From positions 2,046,001-2,110,000 of the forward strand of contig NZ_PTJC01000005.1 of the NCBI RefSeq assembly GCF_002934605.1: a stretch of 64,000 bases of DNA, given 5' to 3'. The position numbers and the translations under genes were made by a program. Positions 8,702 to 40,945 of this stretch are shown one piece after another (position 1 is the first letter of the stretch; every line of letters starts with the position of its first letter). Under the pieces are notes generated by a model that was not told the origin of the DNA, made no database searches, and saw only the letters and a list, made by a program, of their open reading frames with translations. The DNA comes from Neolewinella xylanilytica (GTDB lineage: Bacteria; Bacteroidota; Bacteroidia; Chitinophagales; Saprospiraceae).

Positions 8702-8721
8702 GCGCCAGTAGATACGGCACT

Positions 8722-9210
8722 TTACCGCGGCTGAAATCTTACGGGAAGCCGGTAGCTGCGGGCATTTTCCGGCAAGCCCGAAGGATTGGCCCGCTCGAAA
8801 ACCAGGTACCCGGTTTCGGATTTGGGCGGAGCAAACTCCAGGCTTCCGGTGAAGGGAACCCAGTCCTCCGTCATCCAGTCGGATCCGGCTTGCGCCCGCC
8901 CACTCCCCAGTGTAGTCCCGTCTTGGTCCTCCATACGAACGGGGAAATCGGCTTCGAAATAATAGTAGCCCCGTGCCATCCCCCCAAACCGAAGCGGGGA
9001 AGTCACAACCTGGTGGGGTGACGGTTCCTCCACACGGATGAGTGAATCGATCGAACGACTGTCGGTAGAGTCGGGTGATGAATCCACCGCGGAGCTCTGA
9101 CGAATGAGGGGATCCTGCTGGGTAGCTTCGGGCGGGGGCGGTCCGCAAGTGACGGTCCCAATTACGATAGCGGCGGTAAAGGACAGCGAATAAATCCCTA
9201 CGTATCGCAT
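8722..9210 (-). CDS. Gmad2 immunoglobulin-like domain lipoprotein
   Basis: 162 residues from the internal ATG giving MRYVGIYSLSFTAAIVIGTVTC; the longer frame to 9252 would place an odd hydrophilic stretch before the signal. The Cys after GTVT makes it a probable lipoprotein. A low-complexity Ser/Asp linker follows, then a roughly 90-residue Ig-like domain matching Gmad2: SPLRFGGMARGYYYFEADFPV, LGSGRAQAGSDWMTEDWVPFTGSLEF, and GYLVFERANPSGLPENARSYRLPVRF. Gmad2 domains occur in spore-germination and cell-surface proteins as binding modules; the ligand is unknown. It lies downstream of the TonB-dependent receptor on the same strand with a 48-bp gap and may share its transcript. Confidence 0.75.
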   Translation of the reverse strand: MRYVGIYSLSFTAAIVIGTVTCGPPPPEATQQDPLIRQSSAVDSSPDSTDSRSIDSLIRVEEPSPHQVVTSPLRFGGMARGYYYFEADFPVRMEDQDGTTLGSGRAQAGSDWMTEDWVPFTGSLEFAPPKSETGYLVFERANPSGLPENARSYRLPVRFQPR

Positions 9211-9258
9211 CGGATGAGGCTGTAGCGGATCATCGGGGTTGGGGAATGGCAAGCCTTA

Positions 9259-11712
9259 CTAGAAGTCACCGTCTGCACCGTCGCCGCCACCGCGCTGGCC
9301 GCCATCCCGGCGATTCTCACGGCCGAGGTTGTTGAGGCTGTACTGGAAACCGATGTAGGCGATGCGGCTTTCCCGCTGGAACTCGCTGGTGGTGGTGATG
9401 CCGCCGGTCTCCGTGACGAAGCGGTACTGCCGCTGGTTAAAGACATCCGATACCCGAAAGGTGAGGGCCCCGCGGTCGTTCAGGATCTCCTTCCGGAAGC
9501 CGACGTCTAGGCTCTGGATCGCTTCGATGCGGCCCTGGGGACGTACACCGGGGCTGCGGTAGAAGTAGGTGAACTGCGTCTGGATGCCCCAGGGAAGTTC
9601 GTAGCTGCCCTGTACGTTTCCGCTGAACAGATAGCCGTTTTGGTCGATGTTTTCGTCCTGGTTGTTGCCGATGATCTCGCTGCGGTAGCCGTTGGCGCTG
9701 AAGGTCAGGTCCAGTTTTTCCGTCGGGCGGTAAGTGCTGATGATCTCGATGCCGTAGTCGCGCCCCCGGTCGAGGTTGTCGCGGGTGCTCAGGCTAATTC
9801 CCCCCGGTTGGATGCGGGTGATCTGACTGATGATGTCGTTGAGTTGCCGGTAATAGACGCCGGCGGTAATGGTACTCGCACCGAATTGTTGCTGGACGTT
9901 CAGTTCGAAACTGTTGATCAGCTCGGGAAGCAGGAAAGGGTTGCCGGCCCGCAGGTTGAAGGGATCGCCGCGGTCGACGAAGGGGTTGAGGGCCCAGGCG
10001 CGCGGCCGCTCGATGCGCCGGCTGTAGCTCGCCTGTAGGGTGGTTTGTTCGGTGAAGGCGTAGCCGGCGTAGATGCTGGGGTAGACCTTGAAGTAATTGT
10101 TCTCGAAGGTTTCGGGATTGGGTTCCAGGAGCCGGCTGGTCGTATAGGCTTGCTCGGCCCGGAGTCCGGCGTTGAAGGTGATCTTATCGATTTTACCGCC
10201 GAAGGTGGCGTAAATGGCGTGGACGTCTTCCTCGTAGGCGAAGAGGTTGCTGAGGCTGTCTACTTTCTGAAAGTCACCGGCCGTGAAAGTCTGGAATTCG
10301 GCATCCTCCTCCAGGCGTTCGAAGGTGGAGCGCCAGCCGGTAGTCAGTTTGAACTCTCCGAAGGTCTGTTCGTAATCCAGTTGGGCGAGCACCCGGTCCC
10401 TTCCTTCCAGCGTAGGGGAGCGCTGCCGCTCCGTTCCGATCTCCGTGTTGAAGGCGTCGACGATGATCTCGTCGTAATTCTCGATTTCGTTCTCGTCGTT
10501 GTTGCTGTACTGCAACTGTCCGCTCAGGCGGCGGCCCTCCTTGGCGAAGCTAGTGTTGTAATTCAGCTGAATCTCGTAGTCGGTTTCCTCGTTGGGTTCG
10601 GTTTCGTTCCGCGTACTGGTTCGGTCGAGGCCGCCTTCGCTGTTGAAGAAGTCCGTGGTACGCAAGTTGCTGTTGTCGCCCCATTCCAACTGGTAGTTGG
10701 CCTGCACGCCGATTACCCCGCGTTCACCGATACCGTATTCGGTACCCAGCTTCATCATCGTCGACTTCCGTACCCGGTCGCCGTCGAAGTTGAAGCGGCG
10801 GCTGAAAAGGGAGTCACCAAGCGTACCGTCCTGGTCGCGGAAACCCTGGAAATAGCGTTCGTCGTAGCGACCACTAATACCGGCGAATGAGTTGAATTTT
10901 CCCTTGCGCCAGTTTAGGTCCAGGTTGCCATCGAATTTGTTATTCGTCCCCACGTTGAGGTTGGTAGACAGGTTGAATCCATCGTCTTCCTTCTTCTTCA
11001 GGATAATGTTGATGATGCCCGCAGTACCCTCCGGATCGTAGGCCGCTCCCGGGTTGGTGATCACCTCTACTCTTTCGATACTGGACGCACTCAGCGATTG
11101 TAGGTAGGTAGCTGGATCGGAACCAACGATACCGCTCGGTTTGCCGTTGATGAGGAAGCGCACGCCACCACTGCCTCGCAGGCTGACGTTCCCCTCGAGG
11201 TCTACCGTAATGCTGGGAATTTGACGGAGGAGGTCCGCCGCGGATCCGCCGGCCGCTGCTACGCTTTTTTCCACGTTAAAGGACTTGCGGTCTAAGCCGA
11301 GCTCCATAATGGGCCGCTCGGCGGTTACGACTACCTCGTCCAGATCCGTAGCACCACCCGCGCCCAGATTAATTTGACCCACTTCTAAAAAACGTTCGGA
11401 ATTGTTAAGCTCCAGCATCATTTCTTCATCCTCATAGCCGATAAAGCTTACTTCCAGCCGGTAATCGCCGTAAGGAAGGTCGGTCAGGGTAAAATTGCCG
11501 TCGATATCACTGGTGGTGCCGCTCACCATCTCCCCGTTTTGAACATTATAAACGGCAATATTCGCGAAGCCGACGGGCTGATCGTTGCCCGAATCCAGGA
11601 GCTTGCCGCCCACCCCCCCGGTATTGGGAGCTAACTCGGGGCGGGGGCTTTCATTTTGGGCGTAAACGCAGGAGCAAAGAAATAAAAGGAGGGTAAAAAA
11701 TGTCGACTTCAT
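9259..11712 (-). CDS. TonB-dependent receptor-like outer membrane beta-barrel protein
   Basis: 817 residues from the ATG that gives MKSTFFTLLLFLCSCVYAQ; an earlier ATG at 11757 would add 15 residues before the signal. After the signal comes a CarboxypepD_reg domain (GKLLDSGNDQPVGFANIAVY...TSDIDGNFTLTDLPYGDYRLEVSFIGYE), then a plug with DLDEVVVTAERPIMELGLDRKSFNVEKS and SLRGSGGVRFLINGKPSGIVGSDP, and a long beta-barrel rich in alternating aromatic strands. The absence of a classic substrate partner and the overall shape fit the outer-membrane beta-barrel group (OMP_b-brl) rather than SusC. The C-terminus is unusual: after the last strand there is a Gly/Arg/Asp-rich tail (REN...RDGGQRGGGDGADGDF). 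Confidence 0.88.
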   Translation of the reverse strand: MKSTFFTLLLFLCSCVYAQNESPRPELAPNTGGVGGKLLDSGNDQPVGFANIAVYNVQNGEMVSGTTSDIDGNFTLTDLPYGDYRLEVSFIGYEDEEMMLELNNSERFLEVGQINLGAGGATDLDEVVVTAERPIMELGLDRKSFNVEKSVAAAGGSAADLLRQIPSITVDLEGNVSLRGSGGVRFLINGKPSGIVGSDPATYLQSLSASSIERVEVITNPGAAYDPEGTAGIINIILKKKEDDGFNLSTNLNVGTNNKFDGNLDLNWRKGKFNSFAGISGRYDERYFQGFRDQDGTLGDSLFSRRFNFDGDRVRKSTMMKLGTEYGIGERGVIGVQANYQLEWGDNSNLRTTDFFNSEGGLDRTSTRNETEPNEETDYEIQLNYNTSFAKEGRRLSGQLQYSNNDENEIENYDEIIVDAFNTEIGTERQRSPTLEGRDRVLAQLDYEQTFGEFKLTTGWRSTFERLEEDAEFQTFTAGDFQKVDSLSNLFAYEEDVHAIYATFGGKIDKITFNAGLRAEQAYTTSRLLEPNPETFENNYFKVYPSIYAGYAFTEQTTLQASYSRRIERPRAWALNPFVDRGDPFNLRAGNPFLLPELINSFELNVQQQFGASTITAGVYYRQLNDIISQITRIQPGGISLSTRDNLDRGRDYGIEIISTYRPTEKLDLTFSANGYRSEIIGNNQDENIDQNGYLFSGNVQGSYELPWGIQTQFTYFYRSPGVRPQGRIEAIQSLDVGFRKEILNDRGALTFRVSDVFNQRQYRFVTETGGITTTSEFQRESRIAYIGFQYSLNNLGRENRRDGGQRGGGDGADGDF

Positions 11713-13159: not shown

Positions 13160-13200
13160 GTGGTTTGCAAACCATCTACCGGTACCTTCGTTACCTCCCC

Positions 13201-14766
13201 ATGACCGCCAACCCACCAAGCAACTTACGCCAACGAACGGAGCAGCTCCTGCGCGCACTCACGGATGGCCTTTACGAACGGGACCGGGCCATGGGCCTTT
13301 CGCTACTGACCGCGGTAGCCGGGGAGAGCATCTTCCTCCTCGGTCCGCCCGGTGTAGGGAAAAGCCTGATCGCCCGCCGGTTAAAGTACGCCTTTCGCGA
13401 CGGGGTGAGTTTCGAGTACCTAATGTCGAAGTTTTCTACGCCGGACGAGGTGTTCGGACCGATATCGATCAAGAAGCTTCGCGACGAGGATAAATACGAG
13501 CGGCTCACCGACCGCTACCTGCCCGGTGCCAACATCGTATTCCTGGATGAAATATGGAAGGCCGGTCCCGCCATCCAGAATGCCCTGCTGACCATACTCA
13601 ACGAGAAGATCTACCGCAATGGCGACCAGGATATGAAGGTCGACATCCGCGGGATCATCACGGCAAGTAACGAGCTTCCGCCCCGCAGCGCCAATTTGGC
13701 CCCAATCTGGGACCGCTTCCTGGTGCGTCTCGAGCTCGGTCGCATCAGCGAATACCAGAACTTCGTGAAGATGGTCGTCGATACCCGCGATGTCTACGAA
13801 GACAACATCCCGGATTCCACCAAACTTTCGGAAGCGGAACTGGATGAGTGGTCGGACCGCATCGATGGAATAGACGTACCGGCCGAGGTGCTGAATACGC
13901 TCCAGTTGCTCCTTTTCAAGGTCGAACGGTATAACGAGCAGCCCAACAACGCCCCACATCCCATTCTCATTTACGATCGCCGGTGGAAGAAAGCCGTACG
14001 GCTCCTGCGCGCCGCCGCCTTCCTGCACGGACGCACCGCCGTCAATCTGATGGACTGTTTCCTGCTCGAGCACTGTCTGTGGAATGCACCCGAGCAGCGG
14101 GAGATTATCCGGGAAATGATCGTCGATGCGGTGCGCAAGCACGGCTACAGCGTGGCGGTGAATCTTTCGGCGTTGAAAACGGAAGTGCGGGAATTCGAGG
14201 AAGACGTGCGGGAAGAAACGCGCATTCAGCACACCCGGGAGGAAGCGCAACTGCTTCCGGTGAAGGAAAGCTACTACGAGCTGGAGAAGGACCTGAGCCA
14301 GTTCCGGGGCGTACTGGTGTCCATCGATCAGTTCCGGGGGCTCAGCAACCAGGAATTTACCAGCGTGAATTTCTACGATGAGGACCTAAACCTGGTGAAC
14401 CGAATCCGGGGTCGTAAGGGGCCGCGGGAGCATACGATCGAAGTCAATTTTAACGGTACCGACACGACCTTCCGCCTAAAGACCCAGCTCACGGAACGCC
14501 GCGAGGTAATCCGCAAACAACCCCACCGCCTCCTGCGCGAATTCTGGGACGAACGGACCGCCCAGCTCGAGAGCTACGTCAAAAAGCAGTTGGATGCCAT
14601 CGAGGCGAACGGCCCTGACGAGCTCAGCGACATCGACGACCACCTGTTTGTCGACGGTGCATATGCCAAAGTGGTCCGGGCGAACCTCGATGAAGTGCGG
14701 GAAGCCCTGCAATCCCTTCTTTTACGCCTCGAGAAGATCCAGTTCGAATACGGGGCCGAAGTATAA
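13201..14766 (+). CDS. ravA: MoxR-family AAA+ ATPase, RavA type
   Basis: 521 residues from the ATG at 13201; the frame is open to 13165, but a TACCTTCG promoter-like box at 13183-13190 supports the later start. AAA+ motifs: Walker A GPPGVGKS (residues 48-55), FEYLMSKFSTPDEVFGPISIKKL, Walker B NIVFLDEIWKAG, sensor region IITASNELPP and an arginine finger region around IWDRFLVRLELGR. The C-terminal ~200 residues are a helical, charged extension like the RavA discontinuous triple-helical region (EEDVREETRIQHTREEAQLL). RavA normally works with the VWA protein ViaA as a chaperone of respiratory or iron-sulfur proteins. No ViaA gene follows here; the next gene is LutA-like. Gene symbol by family resemblance. 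Confidence 0.85.
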   Translation: MTANPPSNLRQRTEQLLRALTDGLYERDRAMGLSLLTAVAGESIFLLGPPGVGKSLIARRLKYAFRDGVSFEYLMSKFSTPDEVFGPISIKKLRDEDKYERLTDRYLPGANIVFLDEIWKAGPAIQNALLTILNEKIYRNGDQDMKVDIRGIITASNELPPRSANLAPIWDRFLVRLELGRISEYQNFVKMVVDTRDVYEDNIPDSTKLSEAELDEWSDRIDGIDVPAEVLNTLQLLLFKVERYNEQPNNAPHPILIYDRRWKKAVRLLRAAAFLHGRTAVNLMDCFLLEHCLWNAPEQREIIREMIVDAVRKHGYSVAVNLSALKTEVREFEEDVREETRIQHTREEAQLLPVKESYYELEKDLSQFRGVLVSIDQFRGLSNQEFTSVNFYDEDLNLVNRIRGRKGPREHTIEVNFNGTDTTFRLKTQLTERREVIRKQPHRLLREFWDERTAQLESYVKKQLDAIEANGPDELSDIDDHLFVDGAYAKVVRANLDEVREALQSLLLRLEKIQFEYGAEV

Positions 14767-24016: not shown

Positions 24017-24144
24017 TACCGGGTGGTTAGTGAGTGAATGCCATGGTTTAGCGTAACGAAAGTAGGTAGCGGCACATTGTCGCAATTGAAGGGTGCGGGG
24101 GTTTAAGGGATAATTAGCTAGTCTTCTTATGGGGTCGTTAAAGT

Positions 24145-24300
24145 TCGTCCGGACACCCGCAGGTCCTACGGACACTCCGGGGTCCGGTGCTTTTCACCGG
24201 GAGCGATGCAGCACCTCGGCGGGTGGCGCGACGCGGGAGCGGGACCAGCGTGGGTACGGAACCCGGAAGCAGGCCCCGCCGGAATCGTCCGGACACCCGC
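24145..24300. repeat. 16-bp direct repeat bounding a 124-bp segment upstream of the helicase
   Basis: TCGTCCGGACACCCGC occurs at 24145-24160 and again at 24285-24300. The segment between contains a GTCCGG/CACCGG imperfect pair but no gene. The 304-bp gap between the outer-membrane gene and the helicase holds this repeat and the helicase promoter box; nothing else is visible. Confidence 0.6.
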
Positions 24301-24308
24301 CTGACCAT

Positions 24309-24316
24309 TACCTTCG
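24309..24316 (+). promoter_or_regulatory. -7-like box directly before the helicase start
   Basis: TACCTTCG ends four bases before the ATG at 24321, predicting a leaderless or near-leaderless transcript. The same TACCTTCGCGCCATG string precedes trpS. Confidence 0.45.
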
Positions 24317-24320
24317 CGCC

Positions 24321-25613
24321 ATGCCCCAAGCCCTGCAACTTTCGGAAGATTTTAATTACGCCCTGGAGCGGATGGAGGCCGGTGCGCACTTATTCATTAC
24401 CGGTCGAGCGGGAACGGGAAAATCCACCCTGCTCCAGATCTTTAAGCGCAGCACGCGGAAAAACGTGGTCGTGCTCGCTCCCACCGGCGTTGCCGCCCTG
24501 AACGTGAGCGGACAAACCATCCATTCTTTTTTCAACTTCCCGCCCCGGCTGCTCCAGTCGAAGGACGTTCGCCCCAACCGCCGGAATAAGCGCCTCTTCC
24601 TGAACCTGGAAACCCTGGTCATCGACGAGATCAGTATGGTGCGGGCCGACGTCATGGAGGCCATCGACCTGGGGCTGCGGATGAACCGTGACAGCGACCA
24701 GCCCTTCGGCGGAGTGCAGCTCATCCTCTTCGGCGACCTCTTCCAGCTGCCGCCGGTGGTGAGCAGTGACACGGAGCGGGAGTTTTTTTCGCTGCGTTAC
24801 GCCAGTCCGTACTTCTTCAGCGCCGATTGTCTGGACTACATCGACCTGGAGATGGTGGAATTGCAGCAAGTATACCGCCAGGATAGTCGGCACTTTTTAC
24901 GCCTGCTGGAGAGCATCCGCAATGCCACGATCGATTACGACGAGCTCGCCGACATCAACCAGCGCTGTCTACCCGACTTCGAGCCCGAAGAAGGGATGAA
25001 CTACCTGACCCTGGCCGCTCGCAACGCTACGGTGACGCGAATCAATGGCGGTGCCCTGGAGGCCCTCGATACCCCCGAGCACCTCTACACCGCCGAGGTG
25101 AAAGGAGACTTTCCGGACCGGCTCTTCCCCGTACCCCAGATCCTGCGCCTGAAGGAGGGGGCCCAGGTAATGACCCTTCGCAATGACGCCGACCGCCGCT
25201 ACGTGAACGGGACCATCGGCACGATCAGGCAATGCAAACCGAAGTCGGTCGTCATCGAGATCGTGGAAGAAGGCCGCCCCGTGGAGGTGGAAGTCGAGTA
25301 CGACGAGTGGGACATCATCCGCTACACCGCCGACGGCGCGGATCTTCGCAAGATCGCCACCGAGACATTGGGTACCTACCGCCAGCTGCCGGTCCGGCTA
25401 GCCTGGGCCGTCACCATCCACAAGGCGCAGGGCAAGACCTTCGACCGCATCATCATCGACCTGGGTAAGTCGGGCGCCTTCGAGCACGGTCAGACGTACG
25501 TCGCCCTCAGTCGGTGCCGCACCCTAGAAGGCATCGTACTGCGGCAGCCGCTGAGCTTGCGGGATGTGATGGTGGACCCGGAGGTGGTGCAGTTTTACGA
25601 GGGAAAACGCTAG
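24321..25613 (+). CDS. PIF1/RecD-like superfamily 1B helicase
   Basis: 430 residues from the ATG at 24321; the frame is open upstream to 24129 but that part is the repeat-bearing gap. Motifs: Walker A ITGRAGTGKSTLL (GRAGTGKS, residues 28-35), motif Ia VLAPTGVAALNVSGQTIHSFF, Walker B LVIDEISMVRADVMEAID, motif III LILFGDLFQLPPV, and the C-terminal UvrD-C2 type block LAWAVTIHKAQGKTFDRIIIDLG followed by YVALSRCRTLEGIVL. These are 5'-3' DNA helicases related to PIF1. Some Bacteroidota homologues carry an extra C-terminal HRDC or helicase-associated domain; this one stops soon after the helicase core, so it is the short form. Confidence 0.92.
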   Translation: MPQALQLSEDFNYALERMEAGAHLFITGRAGTGKSTLLQIFKRSTRKNVVVLAPTGVAALNVSGQTIHSFFNFPPRLLQSKDVRPNRRNKRLFLNLETLVIDEISMVRADVMEAIDLGLRMNRDSDQPFGGVQLILFGDLFQLPPVVSSDTEREFFSLRYASPYFFSADCLDYIDLEMVELQQVYRQDSRHFLRLLESIRNATIDYDELADINQRCLPDFEPEEGMNYLTLAARNATVTRINGGALEALDTPEHLYTAEVKGDFPDRLFPVPQILRLKEGAQVMTLRNDADRRYVNGTIGTIRQCKPKSVVIEIVEEGRPVEVEVEYDEWDIIRYTADGADLRKIATETLGTYRQLPVRLAWAVTIHKAQGKTFDRIIIDLGKSGAFEHGQTYVALSRCRTLEGIVLRQPLSLRDVMVDPEVVQFYEGKR

Positions 25614-25712
25614 CCACCCCCGAATTCTCGGGAAAACCCCGCGAATTCTAGATCGGCGATCCCGCGTCCCGCCATGGCCCCGAACATTGCCTTGTCACCA
25701 AAGAACAACGCA

Positions 25713-28700
25713 ATGAAATACTTCCTGCTATTCGTACTCCTCTGTCTGGGTTCCGGTTGGATCTTCGGGCAGTCGGACAGCCCCTACTTCCTGGTGGACG
25801 GATCGGAGGCCGCCTTTCCCCTCGAATCCACTACCGCCGACGTCGACATTGCCGGCGTGATCGCCAACGTAACCGTCGAGCAGGTTTACACCAATCGCGG
25901 TAGCCAGGCCATCGAAGCCACTTACGTGTTCCCTGCATCGACCGAAGCCGCCGTTCACGGTATGGAGATGTACATCGGCGATCGCCGCATCGAGGGGGTT
26001 GTGATGCGCAAGGCCGGGGCGAAGGCCACCTACGAAACCGCCAAAGCGGAAGGGAAGCGCAGCAGCCTGCTCGAGCAACACCGACCGAACGTCTTTCAGA
26101 TGCGCGTAGCCAATATCCTGCCGGGGGATACGGTCCGCGTACGCCTGCAGTACACCGAATTGCTGGTGCCGGCAGGTGGGACCTATCGATTCGTCTATCC
26201 AACGGTGGTGGGACCCCGCTTCACCGGTGAGGACGAGAAGGGCGAGGGCTTTGCCGGCCAGCCGTATTCCGCTTCGGGTACGCCCACGCGGTTTTCGCTC
26301 CAGCTTCACCTGGCCGCCGGTATGCCGATCGCCAGCCTGGAAAGCCCGACCCACCCGATTTTAATCACGCCGGCCGGTCCGAACGCCACCGATCTACGCC
26401 TCGACCCGGGGCTGACGGCACCCGGCAACCGCGATTTCGTCCTGGAATATCAGCTGGGGGGAGCCGGTATCCATACCGGCCTTTTGCTCTACGAAGGGGA
26501 GGAGGAAAACTACTTTCTCTACATGGCGCAGCCGCCGGTAGCCACCTCGTCGGACGACGATTCGTCCGACGAGGATTCGTCCGACGAGGTCCCCGCCCGG
26601 GAATTCGTCTTTATCGTTGACGTCAGCGGCTCCATGACCGGCTTTCCGCTGGACGTCACGAAGAAATTGATGGCCGATCTGGTAAGCGATCTGCGACCCC
26701 GCGATTATTTCAACATCCTACTCTTCGCCGGGGCCGCCGATACCTGGCGTTCGGCTTCCGCGCCCGCGACCCGCGAGAACCTGGCAGCCGCTACGGAATG
26801 GGTGGAGGGCGTCCGTGGCGGCGGTGGCACCGAACTGCTGGCTGCTTTACGGCAGGCCTATGCCTTGCCGGCGCCCGGGGAAAGCGGTCGGACGACTGCT
26901 CGTCCGACGAGTTCCGGTCCCGAAGCGCTCAGCCGAAATTTCGTGATCGTCACCGACGGCTACATTTCCGTAGAGCCCGAAGTTTTCGACCTCATCGATC
27001 AGCACCTGGACCGGGCTAACGTCTACACCTTCGGCATTGGCGGGAGCGTCAACCGCCACCTCATTGATGGCATGGCGCGCGTAGGTCGCGGCCGGCCGGC
27101 GGTGGTACTCGACGAAGCCGCTGCTGCTGTCGAGGCCAGACGCTTCCGGGAATACATCGCCAAACCGCTGCTGACCGATGTCCGACTGAGCTATGCCGGG
27201 TTCGACGTTTACGACCTTGAACCCCTATCGCTTCCCGACCTGGGATCCGAGCGCCCGCTGATTGTCTTCGGTAAGTACCGTGGAAAGCCGAAGGGCGAAC
27301 TCGTACTAAGCGGTAGTACCGGAGCCGGCGATCTGCTGACGACCTACCGGGTCCGGGATAGCCACGCCGATCCGCAACACGCGGCCCTGGCCTACCTCTG
27401 GGCCCGCCACCGGATCCAGCGATTGGACGACTACAATCAGCTCTCCCCGGACGATCAGCGGGTCGAGGAAGTTACCCGCCTCGGACTCGATCACAATTTG
27501 CTGACCCGCTACACCTCCTTCGTGGCGGTAGATAAAACGCCCGCAAGAGAACCAGGCACCGACCTGACCACCGTCAAGCAGCCCCTTCCGCTGCCGGCCG
27601 GCGTATCGGCCAACGCGGTCGGCTTTTCGTTGGGGGTTGCCGGTGTTTCCGGCCTGCCCACCCAATCTTCCGCGCTGCCCTGGTGGAGTTATGCGACCGT
27701 AGCCGCCGTGCTGGCCCTCTTCTTCGTCGGCTTTCGGAAGCTACGCTCGCTGAGTCCCCTGGTGCTCTTACTTCTCGTGTTTACCGCCTGCAAGCCTAAG
27801 CCGGATACCAGGGCCGAGACCGCGCTCATGCCCGAACGCGCTCCCGAAGTAGTGGAGCCGGTAGCCCCTACGTCCAACACGACGCATGAAAGCAAAGTGG
27901 CACCGATCACGACCCCCCCCGTAGCGACATCCCACACGGAGGAGTTCCTTGCCGCAACCAACGACATCACCTTCATCCTCGGCCGCGATCAATCGGATAA
28001 TCCCTACTTCGCCCGCGCCGAACGCTACTTCCGGGAACAGGGGGCGGAACGGATCGTCACCGGGCTGGAAAGCCTCGCCGCCGTGCGATACTACCTGGAT
28101 AGCCGCCGTCCGCGGGAAGGGTGGGGACGCATTCACCTGGTGGTCCACGGTAACCCCTGGTCGGGATTGGCCGTAGGCCGCACCGCCGCTGAGAAGCGCA
28201 CCACCGCCCAGCAGCTTTCGGAGTGGTCGCCCGCACCTTTATCCGGGATCAACGAGGCCACGCGGATCGTGCTCCACGGCTGCGGACTGGGTAGCGACCG
28301 GGACCTGCTGCGGGAGCTAAGTCGCGTATTCGGTGGCGAGCGGACCTTTCCGGAGGTAGAAGCGACGGAGCAGTTCACCCTGTTCCGGGAAGGACCCCGG
28401 GGCATGGAGCGGCACTACGCCGACGCCTACTTCCGGGCGCGTCCGCTGGGGGATTATCCGCTGCCGTCGGTGATGGCTGTCCGCTTCGGGCGAAAGTATC
28501 CCCACGTCGCGGTCGATTGGGAGGCCGCATTGTCGCGCGATCGCTTCACGGAAGCCCTGCTGCCCTACCTTTATCAGTTCAACGTACCGGTCGAGTGGCT
28601 GCACGTCCACCCGGAAGGCGGTGCCGTTTACCTGCCCGGGCGCGAGGCTGAACAAGCGGCATGGTTGGAAGGGGAAGAGGCGCTGATCCGCGAACTCGCC

Positions 28701-28877
28701 CGAATAGGACTGACCCACGCTGATTTCCGCTGGACTTTCGATCGTACCACCTACCGCCTGGCGGATGGAAGCCGGATCCCCGCCGCCCGGGCACTAGGAA
28801 CTTCGCGCCTATTCTGCGTGCTCGTGCCGGTCGATCAGGCACGAACCGTACGGCAGCGGTACTTTCGTGATGCATGA
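25713..28877 (+). CDS. VIT/VWA domain protein fused to a lipobox-like segment and a clan-CD (CHAT/DUF4347-like) C-terminal domain
   Basis: 1054 residues from the ATG giving MKYFLLFVLLCLGSGWIFGQ; an ATG at 25674 would add a hydrophilic lead. Domains: VIT (about 20-150; VEQVYTNRGSQAIEATYVFP), VWA (about 295-480; MIDAS DVSGSM at Asp303), a membrane helix (ALPWWSYATVAAVLALFFVGF, ~655-675), then LVLLLLVFTAC (Cys693), which looks exactly like a lipoprotein signal. The C-terminal ~300 residues contain HLVVHGNPW (His812) and RIVLHGCGLGSD (Cys857), a His/Cys arrangement like clan CD peptidases, CHAT and DUF4347 domains. Known VIT-VWA proteins are secreted adhesion or inter-alpha-trypsin-inhibitor-like proteins. 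The stop overlaps the next start (ATGA), so it is co-translated with a histidine kinase. Domain calls for the C-terminus are inference. Confidence 0.82.
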   Translation: MKYFLLFVLLCLGSGWIFGQSDSPYFLVDGSEAAFPLESTTADVDIAGVIANVTVEQVYTNRGSQAIEATYVFPASTEAAVHGMEMYIGDRRIEGVVMRKAGAKATYETAKAEGKRSSLLEQHRPNVFQMRVANILPGDTVRVRLQYTELLVPAGGTYRFVYPTVVGPRFTGEDEKGEGFAGQPYSASGTPTRFSLQLHLAAGMPIASLESPTHPILITPAGPNATDLRLDPGLTAPGNRDFVLEYQLGGAGIHTGLLLYEGEEENYFLYMAQPPVATSSDDDSSDEDSSDEVPAREFVFIVDVSGSMTGFPLDVTKKLMADLVSDLRPRDYFNILLFAGAADTWRSASAPATRENLAAATEWVEGVRGGGGTELLAALRQAYALPAPGESGRTTARPTSSGPEALSRNFVIVTDGYISVEPEVFDLIDQHLDRANVYTFGIGGSVNRHLIDGMARVGRGRPAVVLDEAAAAVEARRFREYIAKPLLTDVRLSYAGFDVYDLEPLSLPDLGSERPLIVFGKYRGKPKGELVLSGSTGAGDLLTTYRVRDSHADPQHAALAYLWARHRIQRLDDYNQLSPDDQRVEEVTRLGLDHNLLTRYTSFVAVDKTPAREPGTDLTTVKQPLPLPAGVSANAVGFSLGVAGVSGLPTQSSALPWWSYATVAAVLALFFVGFRKLRSLSPLVLLLLVFTACKPKPDTRAETALMPERAPEVVEPVAPTSNTTHESKVAPITTPPVATSHTEEFLAATNDITFILGRDQSDNPYFARAERYFREQGAERIVTGLESLAAVRYYLDSRRPREGWGRIHLVVHGNPWSGLAVGRTAAEKRTTAQQLSEWSPAPLSGINEATRIVLHGCGLGSDRDLLRELSRVFGGERTFPEVEATEQFTLFREGPRGMERHYADAYFRARPLGDYPLPSVMAVRFGRKYPHVAVDWEAALSRDRFTEALLPYLYQFNVPVEWLHVHPEGGAVYLPGREAEQAAWLEGEEALIRELARIGLTHADFRWTFDRTTYRLADGSRIPAARALGTSRLFCVLVPVDQARTVRQRYFRDA
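26547..26587. repeat. Palindromic repeat inside the VIT/VWA gene
   Basis: TCGTCGGACGA (26547-26557), four bases, TCGTCCGACGA (26562-26572), then a third half copy at 26577-26587. The insertion keeps frame and encodes the acidic stretch SSDDDSSDEDSSDE between the VIT and VWA domains. A second copy sits at 26888-26910 and a third between genes at 16452-16478. Confidence 0.75.
26888..26910. repeat. Second in-frame copy of the TCGTCGGACGA inverted repeat
   Basis: TCGGACGA (26888-26895), four bases, then TCGTCCGACGA (26900-26910). It lies in the VWA domain coding region, encoding part of the SGRTTARPTSSG loop. Confidence 0.65.
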
Positions 28878-31216
28878 TTTTTCGCATCCTGGCACTATTG
28901 TTTTCGGTCGGACTGGCCGCGCAGGAGTACGGCTACCGCCAGTACTCCACCGCGGCCGGTCTGCCCGATGCCCGGGTCGAGCGGGTCGTGGCCGATTCCC
29001 TGGGCTACGTCTACGCCCTGACGCCGCTGGGGTGGGTGCGCTTCGACGGGGAGCGGTTTACGGATATCGACCAACCTCCAGCAGGCGTGCGCGATGACAC
29101 CTGGCTGTCGGAACGGGAGCTGGAGACAATTCGCTACCGCTACCTCGAGGGATCGCCGTTTGCCAATACCGAGCTACTCGACCTTACCGAAGACCTGCAA
29201 GGCTACCGATGGCTGGCAACCGGTAATCAGGGGCTGTTGCGTCAGTTGCCTAGTAGCTTCGTTACTTATCCGGTGGAGGGGGCGGCGGTGACCGCCATCG
29301 GCACCTACCGGGATACCCTGTACATCGGCACCGATGGCCGGGGACTCTACCGACTGGTAAACGATACCCTCCAGCCCGTGGATATCGGAGCCGAACTGGA
29401 AGGGCTGCGCATCACCGCCCTGGCCGGTAGCGCGGACCACCTATTCCTAGGAACGGCCGGCAGGGGAGTGTTCGTGGTTAATCCGGACACGCTGGTGCAG
29501 ATCCGTCAGCGAAATGGGTTGCCCAGCAATTGGATCCGGCAGCTGGTCGCCGGCGATTCGATTCTCCGGGTGCTGACCGTAGCGGGCGAACTGGCGGAGG
29601 TGGTGGTTCGGGATTCATCCGTGGCCGTTCGGAGGGATTCGGTAAGCACCGAAGGGTCCACCCGGTATTCGCAGTTGCTGAACGGGCCGAACGACGTACC
29701 TCTCCTGATCCAGGCCGATCCAGCGGTAGTGCGGCAACTCCTCGAACCGGGCTTTCTGATCAGCGGAATCCCCGCAATAACGGGGGCGAGCCTGCGCCGG
29801 ACTACTCAACTCTGGCTCAGTGCCGAAGACCGGGGGGTCTACTTTACCGACTTGGAAGCAAGCCCTTTCCGCTTCGGCCGGGTCGATGAACGATTATTCG
29901 GGGACGCAGGGGCATTCCAATGCATTCTCGCCCTCGGGGAGCAGCGCGAAGTATGGGTAGGTATCGACCGGGGCGTGAGCCGCCTCAGCCTGGACCAGAA
30001 CGGTCAGCCGCTTTACGCTCGGCAGTACGGGTCGGGGGAGGGGTTTCCGGTGGCCGGGGCGGGACCGGCGGTCATCTTTGCTGATCCCGCGGGGAGGGTC
30101 TGGTTCGGTACCCAGGCCGGATTGGTGCGGTTCGTCGGACGGGGCCGCGAAGCTTTCCGGCAACCCCCACCAACAACCTTAGAGGGGATTACCCTTTTCT
30201 ACGACACCATTACTGCGGGCAAATCGGAATTTCAGGCCCGGGAAAACCACCTCGGATTTCGTTTTCGGGCGGTCGACCTGACTTATCCGGAACGGGTCCG
30301 CTATCGGTATCGACTATCGCCACTGGAACCCGACTGGTCTCCGGAAACGCGGGAGAACGCCGTAAGCTACGCCGGTCTGCCCGGAGGTACCTACACCTTT
30401 AGCGTAGCGGCCAGCACGGACGGGAACACTTGGGGGCCGCCGGCGACCTATGCCTTCACGATTGAAAGTCCGCTGTTACTCCAGCCCGCCGTCCTGATCG
30501 CCGGGGTCTTGCTGCTCAGCGGTATACTGGTCTTGGGCTTTTACGTTTACCACCGCCGGCTACTGAAGCAACAGTTGGCGATACGCGACGGTCTGCAGCG
30601 GCAAAACGACTTGCTCCGGCTGGAACAGCAGGCTAGGCAATTGCAAATGAACCCCCACTTTCTCTTCAATGCCCTCAACGGCATCCGGGGGTTGGTGGAC
30701 CGTACCGAAGCCCGCGAACAACTCAGTAGGTTTGCTGCCCTCATGCGGGGCATTCTGCACAATAGCCGACAGGAAACAATCACCCTCGCCGAAGAGCTGG
30801 CGACCCTCGAGCAGTACCTAAAAATGGAACAATTTTGCCAGCCGCGGCCCTTTACCTACCGCATCGAAACCGCCGAGGGCCTGGACCCGGAAGAAGTTGC
30901 CCTGCCGCCGATGCTCTTACAGCCCTTCGTAGAAAATGCGATCCTTCATGGCTTCGGTGGCCTGGATCGGGAGGGAAGCTTACTCCTTCGATTCTTTTTG
31001 CGCGGGCGCAGGTGCCACGTTGAAATCCAAGACAATGGTGTGGGCCGGCACGCAGCCGAAAAGCGGCGGGAAACCCGTAGTCCCGGTCACAAATCCGTAG
31101 CGGTCGGGATCACGCGCGACCGTATCCTCGCTATGGGTGGGCGGCTGACCATTACCGACGCGGTTCCCCACGGGACGCAGGTTCAACTTGAAATTCCCGT
31201 ATTCTATGCCTGGTAG
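28874..31216 (+). CDS. Two-component propeller sensor histidine kinase (LytS type)
   Basis: 780 residues, starting inside the previous stop codon (ATGA). A signal peptide (MIFRILALLFSVGLAAQ) is followed by a periplasmic two-component-regulator propeller (YRQYSTAAGLPDARVERVVADSLGYVYALT, GLPSNWIRQL, GRVWFGTQAGLVRF), then a Y_Y_Y domain (LGFRFRAVDLTYPERVRYRYRLSPLEPDW...YAGLPGGTYTFSVAAS), one membrane helix (PAVLIAGVLLLSGILVLGFYVY), and a LytS-type kinase: LQMNPHFLFNALNGIRGLVD (His595), PPMLLQPFVENAILHG (N box) and IQDNGVGRHAAEKRRE (G box). It probably senses an extracellular ligand and phosphorylates the LytTR regulator encoded next, whose start overlaps its 3' end. Residue numbers are from the start chosen. 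Confidence 0.93.
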   Translation: MIFRILALLFSVGLAAQEYGYRQYSTAAGLPDARVERVVADSLGYVYALTPLGWVRFDGERFTDIDQPPAGVRDDTWLSERELETIRYRYLEGSPFANTELLDLTEDLQGYRWLATGNQGLLRQLPSSFVTYPVEGAAVTAIGTYRDTLYIGTDGRGLYRLVNDTLQPVDIGAELEGLRITALAGSADHLFLGTAGRGVFVVNPDTLVQIRQRNGLPSNWIRQLVAGDSILRVLTVAGELAEVVVRDSSVAVRRDSVSTEGSTRYSQLLNGPNDVPLLIQADPAVVRQLLEPGFLISGIPAITGASLRRTTQLWLSAEDRGVYFTDLEASPFRFGRVDERLFGDAGAFQCILALGEQREVWVGIDRGVSRLSLDQNGQPLYARQYGSGEGFPVAGAGPAVIFADPAGRVWFGTQAGLVRFVGRGREAFRQPPPTTLEGITLFYDTITAGKSEFQARENHLGFRFRAVDLTYPERVRYRYRLSPLEPDWSPETRENAVSYAGLPGGTYTFSVAASTDGNTWGPPATYAFTIESPLLLQPAVLIAGVLLLSGILVLGFYVYHRRLLKQQLAIRDGLQRQNDLLRLEQQARQLQMNPHFLFNALNGIRGLVDRTEAREQLSRFAALMRGILHNSRQETITLAEELATLEQYLKMEQFCQPRPFTYRIETAEGLDPEEVALPPMLLQPFVENAILHGFGGLDREGSLLLRFFLRGRRCHVEIQDNGVGRHAAEKRRETRSPGHKSVAVGITRDRILAMGGRLTITDAVPHGTQVQLEIPVFYAW

Positions 31217-31958
31217 CGCCACCTATACCGCCGTCATTGTCGAGGATATGCTTCCGGCCCTGGAAAGCCTGCGCCGGGACCTGGCCGATTACTGCCCCGA
31301 GGTTAACGTGATCGGTACCGCCGGCGGGGTGGTGGAAGCGGCCAAACTGCTGCGAAAATCGCAACCCGATCTGCTTTTTTTGGACATTCTGCTCGGGGAC
31401 GGAACCAGTTTCGACCTCCTCGAGATCTTGCCGGAACTGACGGCCCGCTTGATCTTCGTGACCGCTTCGGATGAATTCGCCGTCCGGGCATTTCGCTTCG
31501 CCGCGGTGGATTATCTCCTTAAACCCGTGGAAGGGGCGCAACTTCGCGCGGCCGTGGACCGTGCCCTCGCTCAGATCGGCCCCGCCCCCGCCGGCCGACT
31601 GGACCTGCTGCGGGATACGCTGCGTAATCCCCAATCGCTACCGGACCGGCTTTCCTTACACACCGCCGATAATATCCTAGTCACCAAGATCGACGACATT
31701 ATCCGCTGCGAATCCGACAACAACAATACCCGCTTCATCGTCGAAGGACAGAAGCCAGTTTACGTGACCAAAACGCTCAAGCACTACGAGCGCCTGCTGA
31801 CCGAACATTCCTTCGTGCGGGTCCACCAATCGCATCTGGTCAACTTTCGCCACGTGATCGAATTTAAGAAAATAGACTCCGGCTATTTGCGACTCAGCAA
31901 CGGTGATGAAGTGCCGGTGGCCAGCCGCAAGCGTGCCGAGGTGGTAGCCCGACTATAG
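31206..31958 (+). CDS. LytTR response regulator
   Basis: 250 residues from the ATG at 31206; an upstream in-frame TTG at 31188 is possible, but the ATG leaves a normal receiver start (TAVIVEDMLPALESLRRDL). Receiver: phospho-acceptor Asp60 in DLLFLDILLGDG, conserved Thr/Ser in VTASDE and Lys in LLKPVEG. The C-terminal LytTR DNA-binding domain contains LSLHTADNILVTKIDDIIRCESDNNNTRF and FVRVHQSHLVNFRHVIEFKK, ending with VPVASRKRAEVVARL. It overlaps the kinase gene by 11 bases, so the VIT/VWA, kinase and regulator genes form one unit. Target promoters are not known. Confidence 0.93.
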   Translation: MPGSATYTAVIVEDMLPALESLRRDLADYCPEVNVIGTAGGVVEAAKLLRKSQPDLLFLDILLGDGTSFDLLEILPELTARLIFVTASDEFAVRAFRFAAVDYLLKPVEGAQLRAAVDRALAQIGPAPAGRLDLLRDTLRNPQSLPDRLSLHTADNILVTKIDDIIRCESDNNNTRFIVEGQKPVYVTKTLKHYERLLTEHSFVRVHQSHLVNFRHVIEFKKIDSGYLRLSNGDEVPVASRKRAEVVARL

Positions 31959-37201: not shown

Positions 37202-38305
37202 ATGTCCATTTTTCGCGTTGCCGCCTGGTTACTAACGATCGGTATGATCATCACGCTGATCGTGGTGGGCAAAAGCTACCTGGTGCCCATTTTCGTTGCC
37301 CTGGTACTGTGGTATCTGGTGAACGCGCTCAACGATCAGTTTCGCCACCTTCCCTTCGTAGGTACCCGCCTCCCGAACGCCGTCACCCTGGGGATGTCGT
37401 TGGTGTTTATCGGCCTGGCGCTCTACGCCATTTCGGACATGATCGTCAATACCGTCAACGGCTTTATTCTGGAGAGCGGCATTTATCTACCCAAGATCGA
37501 AGCCCAGATCGCCCGGGCCTACGAGCGCCTCGGTATCGATCGCACCCCGCCCTCGGTATCCGACCTGGAGCTCGGCCAGCAGGTGCTCGGCAACTTCGCA
37601 CTGGTGCTGGCCGGCGTCACCAGCGCGGCCAAGGGAGTGGCATTGGTTCTGCTGTACGTGCTCTTCTTCCTGGTCGAGCAGCAGACGTTTCCCCGAAAAC
37701 TGGAAGCCCTGGGCCTGGATATGCGGGGCAGTACCCGCTTTACTCGCACCCTGGCCGAGATCAACTCCGCCATGCGGACCTACCTGGGGGTGAAAACCGT
37801 AACAAGTATTGCTACCGCGGTCCTTAGCTTCGTGATCTTCGTCGCTATCGGGCTGGATTACGCCCTTTTTTGGGCCTTCCTGATCTTTCTGTTCAACTTC
37901 GTACCCACCATCGGTTCCATCACGGCCACCGCCCTGCCGGCCCTGTTGGCGCTGGTCCAGTTCGATAACCTCACCCCCTTCCTGGTCGTGGTGCTGGGCG
38001 TTACGGGGGTGCAGATCCTCGTCGGCAACATCATCGAGCCACGACTCATGGGCAGTACGCTTAATATCAGTCCGCTGGTAGTCGTGCTGACCCTGATCCT
38101 CTGGTCCATGTTGTGGGGAATCGTCGGTATGCTGCTGAGCGTGCCCATTACGGTTGCCATCATCATCATCTGCGCCCAGTTCGAACAGACGCGCCCCATC
38201 GCGATCTTGCTGAGCCGTACCGGGGAGGTGAACACCAAAAAACTCAAGCGGGACCGACATACGGTGCCCACTCCGCAGGAAGAAGCCGTCGCCGATCCAA
38301 CTTAG
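37202..38305 (+). CDS. AI-2E family transporter (PerM/UPF0118)
   Basis: 367 residues, polytopic inner-membrane protein with about seven to eight helices. The N-terminal pair (AAWLLTIGMIITLIVVGKSYLVPIFVALVLWYLVNAL), an extracytoplasmic segment with a helical FILESGIYLPKIEAQIARAYERLG stretch, and the conserved C-terminal block FLFNFVPTIGSITATALPALLALVQ, GNIIEPRLMGSTLNISPLVVVLTLILWSMLWGIVGMLLSVPI are diagnostic. Members export small molecules or act as Na+/H+ antiporters; AI-2 transport is proven only for a few. Its stop codon overlaps the stop of the convergent gene by four bases. Confidence 0.92.
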   Translation: MSIFRVAAWLLTIGMIITLIVVGKSYLVPIFVALVLWYLVNALNDQFRHLPFVGTRLPNAVTLGMSLVFIGLALYAISDMIVNTVNGFILESGIYLPKIEAQIARAYERLGIDRTPPSVSDLELGQQVLGNFALVLAGVTSAAKGVALVLLYVLFFLVEQQTFPRKLEALGLDMRGSTRFTRTLAEINSAMRTYLGVKTVTSIATAVLSFVIFVAIGLDYALFWAFLIFLFNFVPTIGSITATALPALLALVQFDNLTPFLVVVLGVTGVQILVGNIIEPRLMGSTLNISPLVVVLTLILWSMLWGIVGMLLSVPITVAIIIICAQFEQTRPIAILLSRTGEVNTKKLKRDRHTVPTPQEEAVADPT

Positions 38306-40824
38306 TCCAGTTCTTCCGGCAGGGCGATATCCGACAGCGCGGTAGATTTCATGCCGCTCACCAGCCCCTTCCAGTAGCTGTTGAAGAAACTGCGAATCGG
38401 TTGGTGCTCGTGGTATATTTCACCCAACCGGAACTCCTCCCCCCGGCTGTTGCCGTCTTTCACCACTACTCCCGACAGTAGGTTCTTCAGCCAGGATAAG
38501 CCGCCGTCGACCAGCTTCACGTTCAGGTCGCGGTAGAGCATGGTCAGGGTGCCGCGGATCGTGTCCTGGTGCATGCGCGCATCATAGGTCAGCTTTTCGA
38601 TAACGCCTTCCTCGATGACCGCGCCGGCCGCTACCCGCATTAATGGATTGACCCGGGCCAGGTCGTAGGTGCCCAATTCGCCCCGTGCGGAATAACCCCG
38701 ACCGGGCTCCCGGCGGGACAGTCGGAACTCGGCGTGCAACGGCGTCGTCTCCTCAAACGTAGCATCGATTATGGCCAACACCGAATCGCTGCGGCAGATT
38801 TCGGTATCCAAATCCTCGAGCACGATCACCCCGTCCGTGAAGTGGATGGTTTTTGCATCCATTACCGAATCCACGACTCCGTAAGCGATATCCGTCGAGC
38901 GAAAGCGGGCCTTATTCAGTACGATGCGCATTCCCAACTTACGCAGGGCCTCTACCGGCATCGGCCGTTCGTTGCCGCTCACTTCGATGGCCAGGGATTC
39001 CACTACCCGCAGGCGAAAATCGCTGGCGGCCAGGGAGTCGATATGCATGACTTCGCCGCGCAACAGCCCGTCCCGGCGAATCCCCGCCATGCGCAGGTCG
39101 TCGAAGGAGAAATCCATATGGGTCTTTGCCAGTTCTCGTTCGAATAGTTCCGCTTTGCTCACCCGTGTCTGCCGTTGCAGGCTATCCATGGTGAGCAGGG
39201 CGGCCCGGCTGTCGTACGCGATTTGACTGAAGTAGTAATCGACGGGGAGCTCTTCGCTGCCGATCAGTCGGAGCTCCCGCATCCGGACGTTCCCTTCGCC
39301 CAGGGCCTCCGGCTCGAAAGGAACCGGAATGTCGCGCTGGTCCACGTAGAGGCCTTCTCCCTGCATGTCCTTCCGGCCGTCGGAGCCGTAGCGGCTAAAG
39401 GTGGCGTTTTCGAGGCGGGCGCGTCCGGCGGAGATGGGTGGCTGTACCTGGACGTCGTTGAGGGTAATTTGGGGCACGGAAAATTCGTAGTGACCGCCAT
39501 CCGCCCGGTACACCGCGGCCCGGGCCCCGTCGAGTACGGCTGATTCCAGTACGGCGGGGCGGTCGCCGAGGACTGCGGCCCGGTCGATGCCGGCTACGGT
39601 CAGTTTGTCGGTGGACCCGTTAACCTTGTCCCCTTCAACTTGCACGTTTTCCACCGTAGCCTCGCCGGACGCGCTGCGGTAGTTCAGGTTTTCGCCGCTG
39701 ATCGTTTGTTTATCCAGCATGACGGTGAAGGATGGGAGTACCAACTCCGTAGCGCCGAGTTCACCGGCCGCTAGCGGAAATTGGAGCCCTTGCTGTTGCA
39801 ATTCCAGTTGCCGGAGGATCACCGCGAGCCCTTTTTGGTTATCGAAGCTCAGGCTGTCGCTATCGACGGAAACCCGTTCCAAGGATAGGCTGTCGCGGTA
39901 CCTCAGTCCGCTGGCCGTCACGCCCCCCGCGTAGCTGGCCGTTCCGAAGTCTCCGGACAGCTCCAGGTCGATTTGGGGAAAGCGAATCGTGCCTACCCGC
40001 AGGGGGGAGGTTTGCGACGTATCACGGGAGTTTCCGGAAGTTGCCGGCACCTGCGCGCTGCCGCCCAAACTGCCGATGGAAAAGCTGTCCACCGATACGG
40101 TTTCCGAAAGATCGCCGGCGTTTAGGCCGGAAAGCACGAGGTCCTCGGCCCGAATGTCCGTTTCGGAGCCCCGGCGCAGCGTAAGCGCGGCAATGGCCAC
40201 GGATTCGGAGCCCGTGCCGTAACCGATACCGCTGGCCACGATGCGGAGATCATTGGTGGTATTGGCGTACACCGTGGAATCGGCACTCAACTGGAGGGAT
40301 CGGATTTCCGCCGGCCGCAGGGGGAAGTGAAGGGACTGTACCGAGAGTCCGAGGTCGACCAGCTGGACCTCCCGGCCACTGACGTCATCGGTGAAATCGA
40401 GATAGATGCTGTCCAGTTCGACTTCTACCAGTTCCAGCGCGAAAGAACTGCTGTCGTTGCTATTCCCGCTGCCGGTGCGCCGCAGATCGGCATCGAGACC
40501 GTGCAGGCGAAGGAGCTCGATTTCAATCGGGTCGGATCCGAAGAGGCTAAAGAGGTGCAGGCGGTCGACGGCCACGGTGCTGAGCCGGCCCCGGGCCGAG
40601 AAATTTGCCCGCTCCTGGTCGAAATTCACCTGGCGGGCCTCCAGCCGAAGGGGGAACAGACCGTAGGAATATTCTCCTACCGTGAGCTGATTGCCGCCTT
40701 CGTTGGCCGAAGCGATGGCCTGATCGATCCGGTGGTCAATGTACCAGCGCGCGCCGAGGTACAGGGCTACGGGAAGGAGGAAGAATAGGTACCACCAGTG
40801 CAAGCGGAAGGGGCGGACGGACAT
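38302..40824 (-). CDS. Large AsmA-like/DUF748-type envelope protein
   Basis: 840 residues from the ATG giving MSVRPFRLHWWYLFFLLPVALYLGARWYID, an N-terminal membrane anchor; the frame upstream to 40941 is not signal-like. The rest is a long repetitive beta-rich periplasmic domain with many 'DSLxLS/VDSFxIG' strands (VELDSIYLDFTDDVSG, LRLHGLDADLRRTG, ISAGRARLENATFSRYG, MRIVLNKARFRSTDIAYG). The C-terminus VNPLMRVAAGAVIEEGVIEKLTYDARMHQDTIRGTLTMLYRDLNVKL is the conserved DUF748/AsmA-type ending. Such proteins are proposed to bridge inner and outer membranes for phospholipid transport. The stop overlaps the AI-2E stop by four bases. Confidence 0.75.
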   Translation of the reverse strand: MSVRPFRLHWWYLFFLLPVALYLGARWYIDHRIDQAIASANEGGNQLTVGEYSYGLFPLRLEARQVNFDQERANFSARGRLSTVAVDRLHLFSLFGSDPIEIELLRLHGLDADLRRTGSGNSNDSSSFALELVEVELDSIYLDFTDDVSGREVQLVDLGLSVQSLHFPLRPAEIRSLQLSADSTVYANTTNDLRIVASGIGYGTGSESVAIAALTLRRGSETDIRAEDLVLSGLNAGDLSETVSVDSFSIGSLGGSAQVPATSGNSRDTSQTSPLRVGTIRFPQIDLELSGDFGTASYAGGVTASGLRYRDSLSLERVSVDSDSLSFDNQKGLAVILRQLELQQQGLQFPLAAGELGATELVLPSFTVMLDKQTISGENLNYRSASGEATVENVQVEGDKVNGSTDKLTVAGIDRAAVLGDRPAVLESAVLDGARAAVYRADGGHYEFSVPQITLNDVQVQPPISAGRARLENATFSRYGSDGRKDMQGEGLYVDQRDIPVPFEPEALGEGNVRMRELRLIGSEELPVDYYFSQIAYDSRAALLTMDSLQRQTRVSKAELFERELAKTHMDFSFDDLRMAGIRRDGLLRGEVMHIDSLAASDFRLRVVESLAIEVSGNERPMPVEALRKLGMRIVLNKARFRSTDIAYGVVDSVMDAKTIHFTDGVIVLEDLDTEICRSDSVLAIIDATFEETTPLHAEFRLSRREPGRGYSARGELGTYDLARVNPLMRVAAGAVIEEGVIEKLTYDARMHQDTIRGTLTMLYRDLNVKLVDGGLSWLKNLLSGVVVKDGNSRGEEFRLGEIYHEHQPIRSFFNSYWKGLVSGMKSTALSDIALPEELD

Positions 40825-40945
40825 AGGCGAGCGGGCAAGAAGCGAAGACTTTGGATAAAGCGCAGCCCGTTGGCGAATGTTTGGGCGCCGGGGCGCAGGT
40901 GCAGCGATCGGAACGCAATCTACCCGGTAAACGATAAACAAATTG

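Follow-up and report, generated by a model that had tools for sequence, protein, structure and literature searches.

A conserved His-Cys domain fused to, or encoded beside, VIT-VWA proteins in Neolewinella xylanilytica and its relatives

Within a stretch of 64,000 nucleotides of the Neolewinella xylanilytica genome (RefSeq assembly GCF_002934605.1, contig NZ_PTJC01000005.1, positions 2,046,001 to 2,110,000 of the forward strand; hereafter the window), one gene was found to join a VIT-VWA protein to a C-terminal domain in which a histidine (His812) and a cysteine (Cys857) are strongly conserved. This C-terminal part is a real protein family of the order Chitinophagales and a few relatives, seemingly not yet described, and the two halves became one gene in the lineage of the window whilst remaining separate genes in most relatives. 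With modest confidence, we favour the reading that it is a membrane-tethered cysteine-peptidase-like domain with a clan-CD-like core and a His812/Cys857 dyad, which works with the VIT-VWA protein and often with a two-component system. The initial annotation had described a VIT domain, a VWA domain, a membrane helix, the segment LVLLLLVFTAC and about 360 residues containing HLVVHG and RIVLHGCGLG. All of these elements were located as described, and its proposals of a fusion with an otherwise separate protein, of a His-Cys pair and of coupling to a sensor kinase were borne out by the relatives considered below.

Distribution of the family and the fusion

A total of 37 homologues of the C-terminal part were retrieved from 36 of 396 genomes of the order. 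One of these, L031 from Lewinella sp. IMCC34191, was found by a one-protein query of genome contigs and stands in every count of 37 for L039, which is the same locus and was excluded. Within the genus, the domain was present in 5 of the 17 genomes examined, with a single copy in the window's own genome, and a congener (G246) gave a weak match to part of the domain (2e-4). When the family profile was searched against 395 genomes of the phylum, six matched, comprising three already known, one further member (G515), a distant segment in G667 and a match in G774. The last (E 7.9e-4) was treated as chance, its open reading frame (ORF) resembling a metallo-beta-lactamase by eye.

The 37 homologues fell into three groups by their relation to VIT-VWA proteins: fused to one (8), encoded next to a separate VIT-VWA gene on the same strand (23), or neither (6). 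The adjacent genes were within 121 nt of each other or overlapped in 21 of the 23 instances; also counted as adjacent were L054 and L058, with partners 1.7 kb and 0.5 kb away, and L056, in which the VIT-VWA protein is split into two ORFs. The contigs of L059 and L061 start 1.3-1.4 kb upstream of the gene, and the genome of L059 (G117) encodes a VIT-VWA protein on another contig. The genome of L038 (G316) additionally carries L054 with its VIT-VWA partner, an intact pair. As a separate observation, free-standing VIT-VWA partners such as those of L043 and L058 finish, after the VWA domain, with an extra region that is TonB/AgmX-like by eye, in place of a hydrophobic segment.

Phylogenetic analysis indicated that the trait 'fused' requires two changes on the tree. 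Seven of the fusions formed one group (support 98/93), and the eighth, L048, grouped weakly (81/51) with the unfused L044. The fusion is real rather than an assembly slip, since open fused frames were present at eight loci, which led to rejection of a frameshift or assembly artefact as its origin, and since the window has no in-frame ATG, GTG or TTG between the two hydrophobic segments that separate the halves; the second segment itself includes a GTG. L031 does contain a TTG between its segments, and a conserved internal start codon for the second half was rejected upon inspection of start codons in the fused frames.

Conservation of the His-Cys pair and the adjoining kinase

His812 and Cys857 were each kept in 35 of the 37 aligned homologues, spaced 45 to 52 residues apart. 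Both residues have been lost from the sister proteins L037 and L038, and a third outlier from G515 (L076, positions 8601-9674), which was included only in a 38-protein test of dyad and partner, has Glu in place of the His and no Cys. All three dyad-less proteins retain F754, A769, L795, G818 and W936, and each is followed by a similar kinase gene, at distances of about 28, 770 and 1685 nt. No VIT-VWA gene was present near any of the three in the stretches fetched; in G515, where 18 kb was fetched, the order is the (dyad-less) domain, kinase, one other gene and regulator. Amongst the 35 dyad-bearing proteins, a VIT-VWA protein was fused or alongside in 31. This association gave a one-sided P of 0.004, or 0.023 when L037 and L038 are treated as a single case, in a post hoc comparison of few cases. 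These data suggest that the His-Cys chemistry serves the VIT-VWA partner and the remainder of the domain serves the kinase.

In the window, the stop codon of the fusion (ending at 28877) overlaps the ATG of a sensor kinase gene (28874) by 4 nt. For 15 of the 37 homologues, a similar kinase gene was located up to about 3.2 kb downstream in the same orientation, sometimes with other genes intervening; 10 homologues, including that of the window, had both a kinase and a LytTR regulator.

Relationship to known families and predicted fold

A Pfam scan of the fusion protein beyond the VWA domain returned no match above cut-off, the best being DUF4347 (PF14252) at 12.7 and 13.1 bits against a gathering threshold of 24.6, below membership of that family. 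The family alignment was compared by hhalign with samples of other families, the sampled proteins being chosen by an open-frame rule (30 of 30 C25, 26 of 30 CHAT, 30 of 30 DUF4347 and 30 of 30 C14 loci). For DUF4347, 99 genomes of the class yielded none at E 1e-8, and 296 genomes of the phylum were then used, of which 32 matched at 0.001. The family aligned with the 30 DUF4347 sequences over 94 columns at a probability of 88.8 (E 2.5e-6, score 47.2), with the HG and GC motifs of the two families superposed; column shuffling (60 controls) gave scores no higher than 19.4, and reversal of the alignment 12.2. Against five clostripain (C11, PF03415) proteins, the score was 37.7 and the probability 40 (62 for the core alone), with 60 shuffles at or below 22.3, whilst no C11 match was seen in the Pfam results of the 37 family members.

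The initial annotation had likened the domain to clan CD, CHAT and DUF4347 proteins. The DUF4347 part of this proposal stood; kinship by profile to CHAT (PF12770), C14 (PF00656) and gingipain C25 (PF01364) was rejected at hhalign probabilities of 0.3, 1.0 and 1.4, in a test that is insensitive among these families, only CHAT and C14 matching each other sizeably (41) and neither C11 nor DUF4347 matching any above 7. A profile search of the sequences of solved structures returned only ribosomal eS7, at an E of about 1. As an observation in its own right, CHAT is abundant in the bacterial family of the window's genome, with up to 26 matches in one of 41 sampled genomes.

An AlphaFold model of the full-length protein, built from two sequences, was poor (predicted local distance difference test score, pLDDT, 46.1). 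A two-sequence model of the 150-residue core reached a pLDDT of 67.5 and a predicted template modelling score of 0.71, and presented the order strand, helix, strand, helix, strand with His, helix, strand with Cys, helix, strand, in which the His directly follows strand 3 and the Cys comes just after strand 4. In the caspase/haemoglobinase fold, according to passages of PMC4357240, the first four strands are accompanied by three helices, with the His ending strand 3 and the Cys ending strand 4. Structural comparison of the core model by VIA-align placed caspases, Craspase and SAVED-CHAT in 11 of the best 50 rows (best Z 6.1), and that of the full model placed caspase or CHAT proteins in 3 of the best 50, one of them at the top (Z 6.3). 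Overall, we consider kinship of the domain with clan CD quite probable, and the order of elements in the core model points to a likely caspase-like fold.

Membrane topology

Both hydrophobic segments between the halves were found in seven of the eight fusions, with the hydropathy of each peaking at 1.8 or more over 17 residues, and the N-terminal hydrophobic segment of the protein is a putative Sec signal. By the positive-inside rule, the VIT-VWA part and the His-Cys domain would both face outwards from the inner membrane, a placement that fits the free-standing homologues, since most of them start with a hydrophobic segment (24 of 29 above 1.9, and 27 of 29 above 1.6). The reading of the second segment as a lipoprotein signal is weak. 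A strict lipobox pattern occurred internally in six of the eight fusions but at the N-terminus of only 4 of the 29 free-standing forms, and because of this rarity the feature common to the family appears to be a membrane tether rather than a lipid.

Proposed role and alternative readings

In the reading that we favour, the signal segment would set the VIT-VWA part outside the inner membrane, and the two hydrophobic segments with the basic loop between them would form a hairpin that brings the His-Cys domain to the same side. The domain would then cut or mature its VIT-VWA partner, or the VWA domain would deliver a substrate to it, whilst the adjoining kinase would sense the state of the VIT-VWA/His-Cys complex and drive the LytTR regulator.

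Several observations weigh against this reading. Single members of the family matched the Pfam DUF4347 profile in only 4 of 37 instances (best E 0.015, all at E up to 1), which does not surpass the chance-like matches to an all-beta PulA domain (3 of 37, best 0.017). DUF4347 itself reached C14, CHAT, C25 and C11 only at hhalign probabilities of 0.1 to 5, and because it barely matches clan-CD families in the same tests, the DUF4347 link alone is insufficient to prove clan CD. The C11 alignment covers only the His half, at the H-x-GW motif, and stops short of the C11 Cys; we take this motif to hold the catalytic His, an assumption that draws in part on passages of PMC4357240. Both AlphaFold models were built on two sequences that are 83-86% alike, and Foldseek searches with both returned nothing at E <= 0.001 and no caspase or CHAT protein among the best 50; against viral structures there was likewise nothing at E <= 0.001, a viral metacaspase-like fragment ranking 38. 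Of the caspase-like fold proposed by the initial annotation, the order of elements was recovered in the model, but the VIA-align caspase and CHAT rows tie with unrelated decarboxylase, receiver and cobalamin domains. The fusion L048 has a single hydrophobic segment, contrary to the hairpin. In L037 and L038, changes at G757, D759 and N814 and gaps at W962 and W1007 accompany the missing dyad, so that more than the His-Cys pair has been lost. No VIT-VWA neighbour was seen for four of the proteins that bear the dyad (L045, L047, L059 and L061). Conversely, of the 33 genomes (among 198 of the order) that encode VIT-VWA proteins resembling TIGR03788 at E up to 1e-60, 18 had no match to the His-Cys domain, including upon a second search with the family profile. 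No kinase was found beside L040, L041 and L042 in the stretches fetched; since these make up three of the genus's five fusions, coupling to the kinase is frequent and not obligatory. Finally, peptidase activity of the dyad is a prediction from sequence.

Alternatively, the domain may be a binding or signalling module that merely keeps its His-Cys pair, serving as the periplasmic partner of the kinase with no chemistry of its own. The three relatives that have lost both residues but retain a large part of the domain and a nearby kinase would be explained in this way; the presence of both residues in 35 of 37 homologues across long branches (median end branch 0.58), and their joint loss, make this rather unlikely. 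That the domain is some other three-layer alpha/beta domain outside clan CD, such as a TIR-like, flavodoxin-like or receiver-like one, would agree with the Foldseek and VIA-align rows, which are mostly such folds at equal Z. Against this stand the DUF4347 profile match that includes both residues, the match at the C11 His motif and the caspase-like order of strands, His and Cys, and we consider it decidedly unlikely. Many bacterial CHAT and caspase-like proteins are defence or cell-death effectors, and the sampled genomes of the window's bacterial family are rich in CHAT (39 of 41) and C14 (36 of 41). A role of this kind is nevertheless the most improbable of those considered, given a membrane-tethered and probably exported layout, maintenance together with VIT-VWA and the lack of a CHAT or C14 profile match.

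A more specific proposal is that the domain is a dedicated clan-CD sortase or maturase which has replaced the sortase of a proteobacterial VIT-VWA system and acts at the VIT-VWA stem. For the whole fusion protein, the best NCBIfam match was to the sortase target of marine proteobacteria (TIGR03788), with a score of 393 bits, below the cut-off of 551.65; no TIGR03788 match above cut-off was found in 198 genomes of the order. The sortase family PF04203 was detected in none of the 36 domain-carrying genomes, whilst 3 of 14 control genomes were positive. The tripeptide GLP precedes the first hydrophobic segment in six of the eight fusions, and LPVTG occurs in L042. There is also a precedent in PorU, which acts as a sortase in Bacteroidota according to an excerpt of PMC8545088. 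However, among the 23 free-standing VIT-VWA partners a C-terminal hydrophobic segment exceeded the threshold in just 3, with L034 added by eye; none of these four carries GLP, and most of the partners end in another region. This, together with the sub-threshold TIGR03788 score of the VIT-VWA half, makes sortase replacement a minority reading and quite an unlikely one. In a more speculative and broader scenario, which we regard as unlikely, a caspase-fold sortase or maturase of VIT-VWA replaced the sortase and, in Lewinella-like bacteria, was joined to the substrate on which it acts, the fusion perhaps being split again at the Cys693 lipobox by the lipoprotein pathway, and loss of VIT-VWA would have left a pseudoenzyme serving the kinase.

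To our knowledge, bacterial VIT-VWA proteins are largely unexplained. No description of a VIT-VWA/caspase-like pair or of this family was found among the matches listed from the open full-text literature, from which absence from print does not follow. The fusion and gene order described here link a VIT-VWA protein with a candidate enzyme bearing a conserved His-Cys pair, and frequently with a two-component system as well, which offers a testable partner, dyad and output. Should the domain process VIT-VWA proteins, Bacteroidota would have another caspase-type enzyme that matures surface proteins, and the relatives of DUF4347, itself a family with no assigned function, would gain a suggested one.

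Gene layout in the window

The features of the fusion gene and of the two genes that follow it are listed in Table 1. A further in-frame ATG lies upstream of the fusion ORF at 25674.

Table 1. Coordinates within the window of the fusion gene, its parts and the adjoining signalling genes
Feature	Position	Strand	Description
VIT-VWA / His-Cys fusion gene	25713..28877	+	Single ORF, 1054 residues from ATG at 25713 (MKYFLL start)
N-terminal hydrophobic segment (putative signal)	25713..25772	+	Hydropathy above threshold at residues 3-19
VIT domain PF08487, residues 37-147	25821..26153	+	Pfam, E 1.5e-33
VWA domain PF13768, residues 297-461	26601..27095	+	Pfam, E 5.4e-16
GLPTQSS stem ahead of first hydrophobic segment	27651..27671	+	GLP here in 6/8 fusions
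First hydrophobic segment, residues ~657-674	27681..27734	+	Best 17-residue hydropathy 1.86, slightly below the 1.9 threshold
Basic RKLR, residues 675-678	27735-27746	+	Between the two hydrophobic segments
Second hydrophobic segment, ending LVLLLLVFTAC	27756..27791	+	Lipobox-like, Cys693; hydropathy 1.98
His-Cys core, residues 746-895	27948..28397	+	Predicted b-a-b-a-b(His)-a-b(Cys)-a-b (b, strand; a, helix)
His812 codon (in HLVVHG)	28146..28148	+	Kept in 35/37 homologues
Cys857 codon (in RIVLHGCGLG)	28281..28283	+	Kept in 35/37 homologues
C-terminal part of the family, residues 896-1054	28398..28874	+	Conserved columns present; low confidence in AlphaFold model
Sensor histidine kinase (Y_Y_Y, His_kinase)	28874..31216	+	Pfam; HATPase_c and Reg_prop slightly below cut-offs
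LytTR response regulator	31206..31958	+	ORF from TTG at 31188, first ATG 31206; overlaps kinase gene

Upstream of the fusion, a PIF1-type helicase gene was observed at 24129-25613, a counterpart of which (74-93% identical) also precedes the L031, L041 and L042 fusions. Elsewhere in the window, 13165-14766 encodes a bpMoxR ATPase of the MoxR-vWA-beta-propeller ternary type, and an 879-residue ORF at 38302-40941 had no Pfam match at 0.001. The ORF at 49502-51547 shows an odd combination, in that a KDO-transferase N-terminal domain is paired with a C-terminal part that matches PPC below threshold.

Comparison with known systems

By profile, the family resembles DUF4347, with which its strand-HG and strand-GC motifs align. 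DUF4347 differs in being a shorter domain without the family's C-terminal part, and the family members score below its Pfam cut-off. In an excerpt of PMC8262886, DUF4347 appears as an uncharacterised domain in a candidate for type VI secretion. The clostripains resemble the family at the C11 His motif, where the alignment exceeded all 60 shuffles; they differ in a Cys half that is unaligned with the family, in a comparison limited to five C11 proteins.

In the proteobacterial dedicated sortase system, the TIGR03788 target is partnered with a sortase, a kinase and a regulator. The arrangement described here is similar, in that a VIT-VWA protein occurs beside a Cys-enzyme candidate, a kinase and a regulator, yet Pfam does not identify the His-Cys domain as a sortase and the VIT-VWA protein lies under the TIGR03788 cut-off. 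PorU is a clan-CD protein of the C25 family. PorU and the gingipains share with the present family the character of cysteine enzymes at the Bacteroidota surface, the His-Cys domain being a candidate one; they are distinguished from it by the lack of a profile match, and two separate C25 proteins are encoded in the window's genome.

A related His-Cys segment was identified in an eCIS_core protein of G667 (L074, positions 7258-10650), which matched the family profile at E 2.7e-8 and by hhalign at a probability of 96.5, with the motifs AHGNASG and RGCRIGRN. Unlike the members of the family, this protein is set among contractile-injection genes (Pvc16_N, AAA and CIS_tube).

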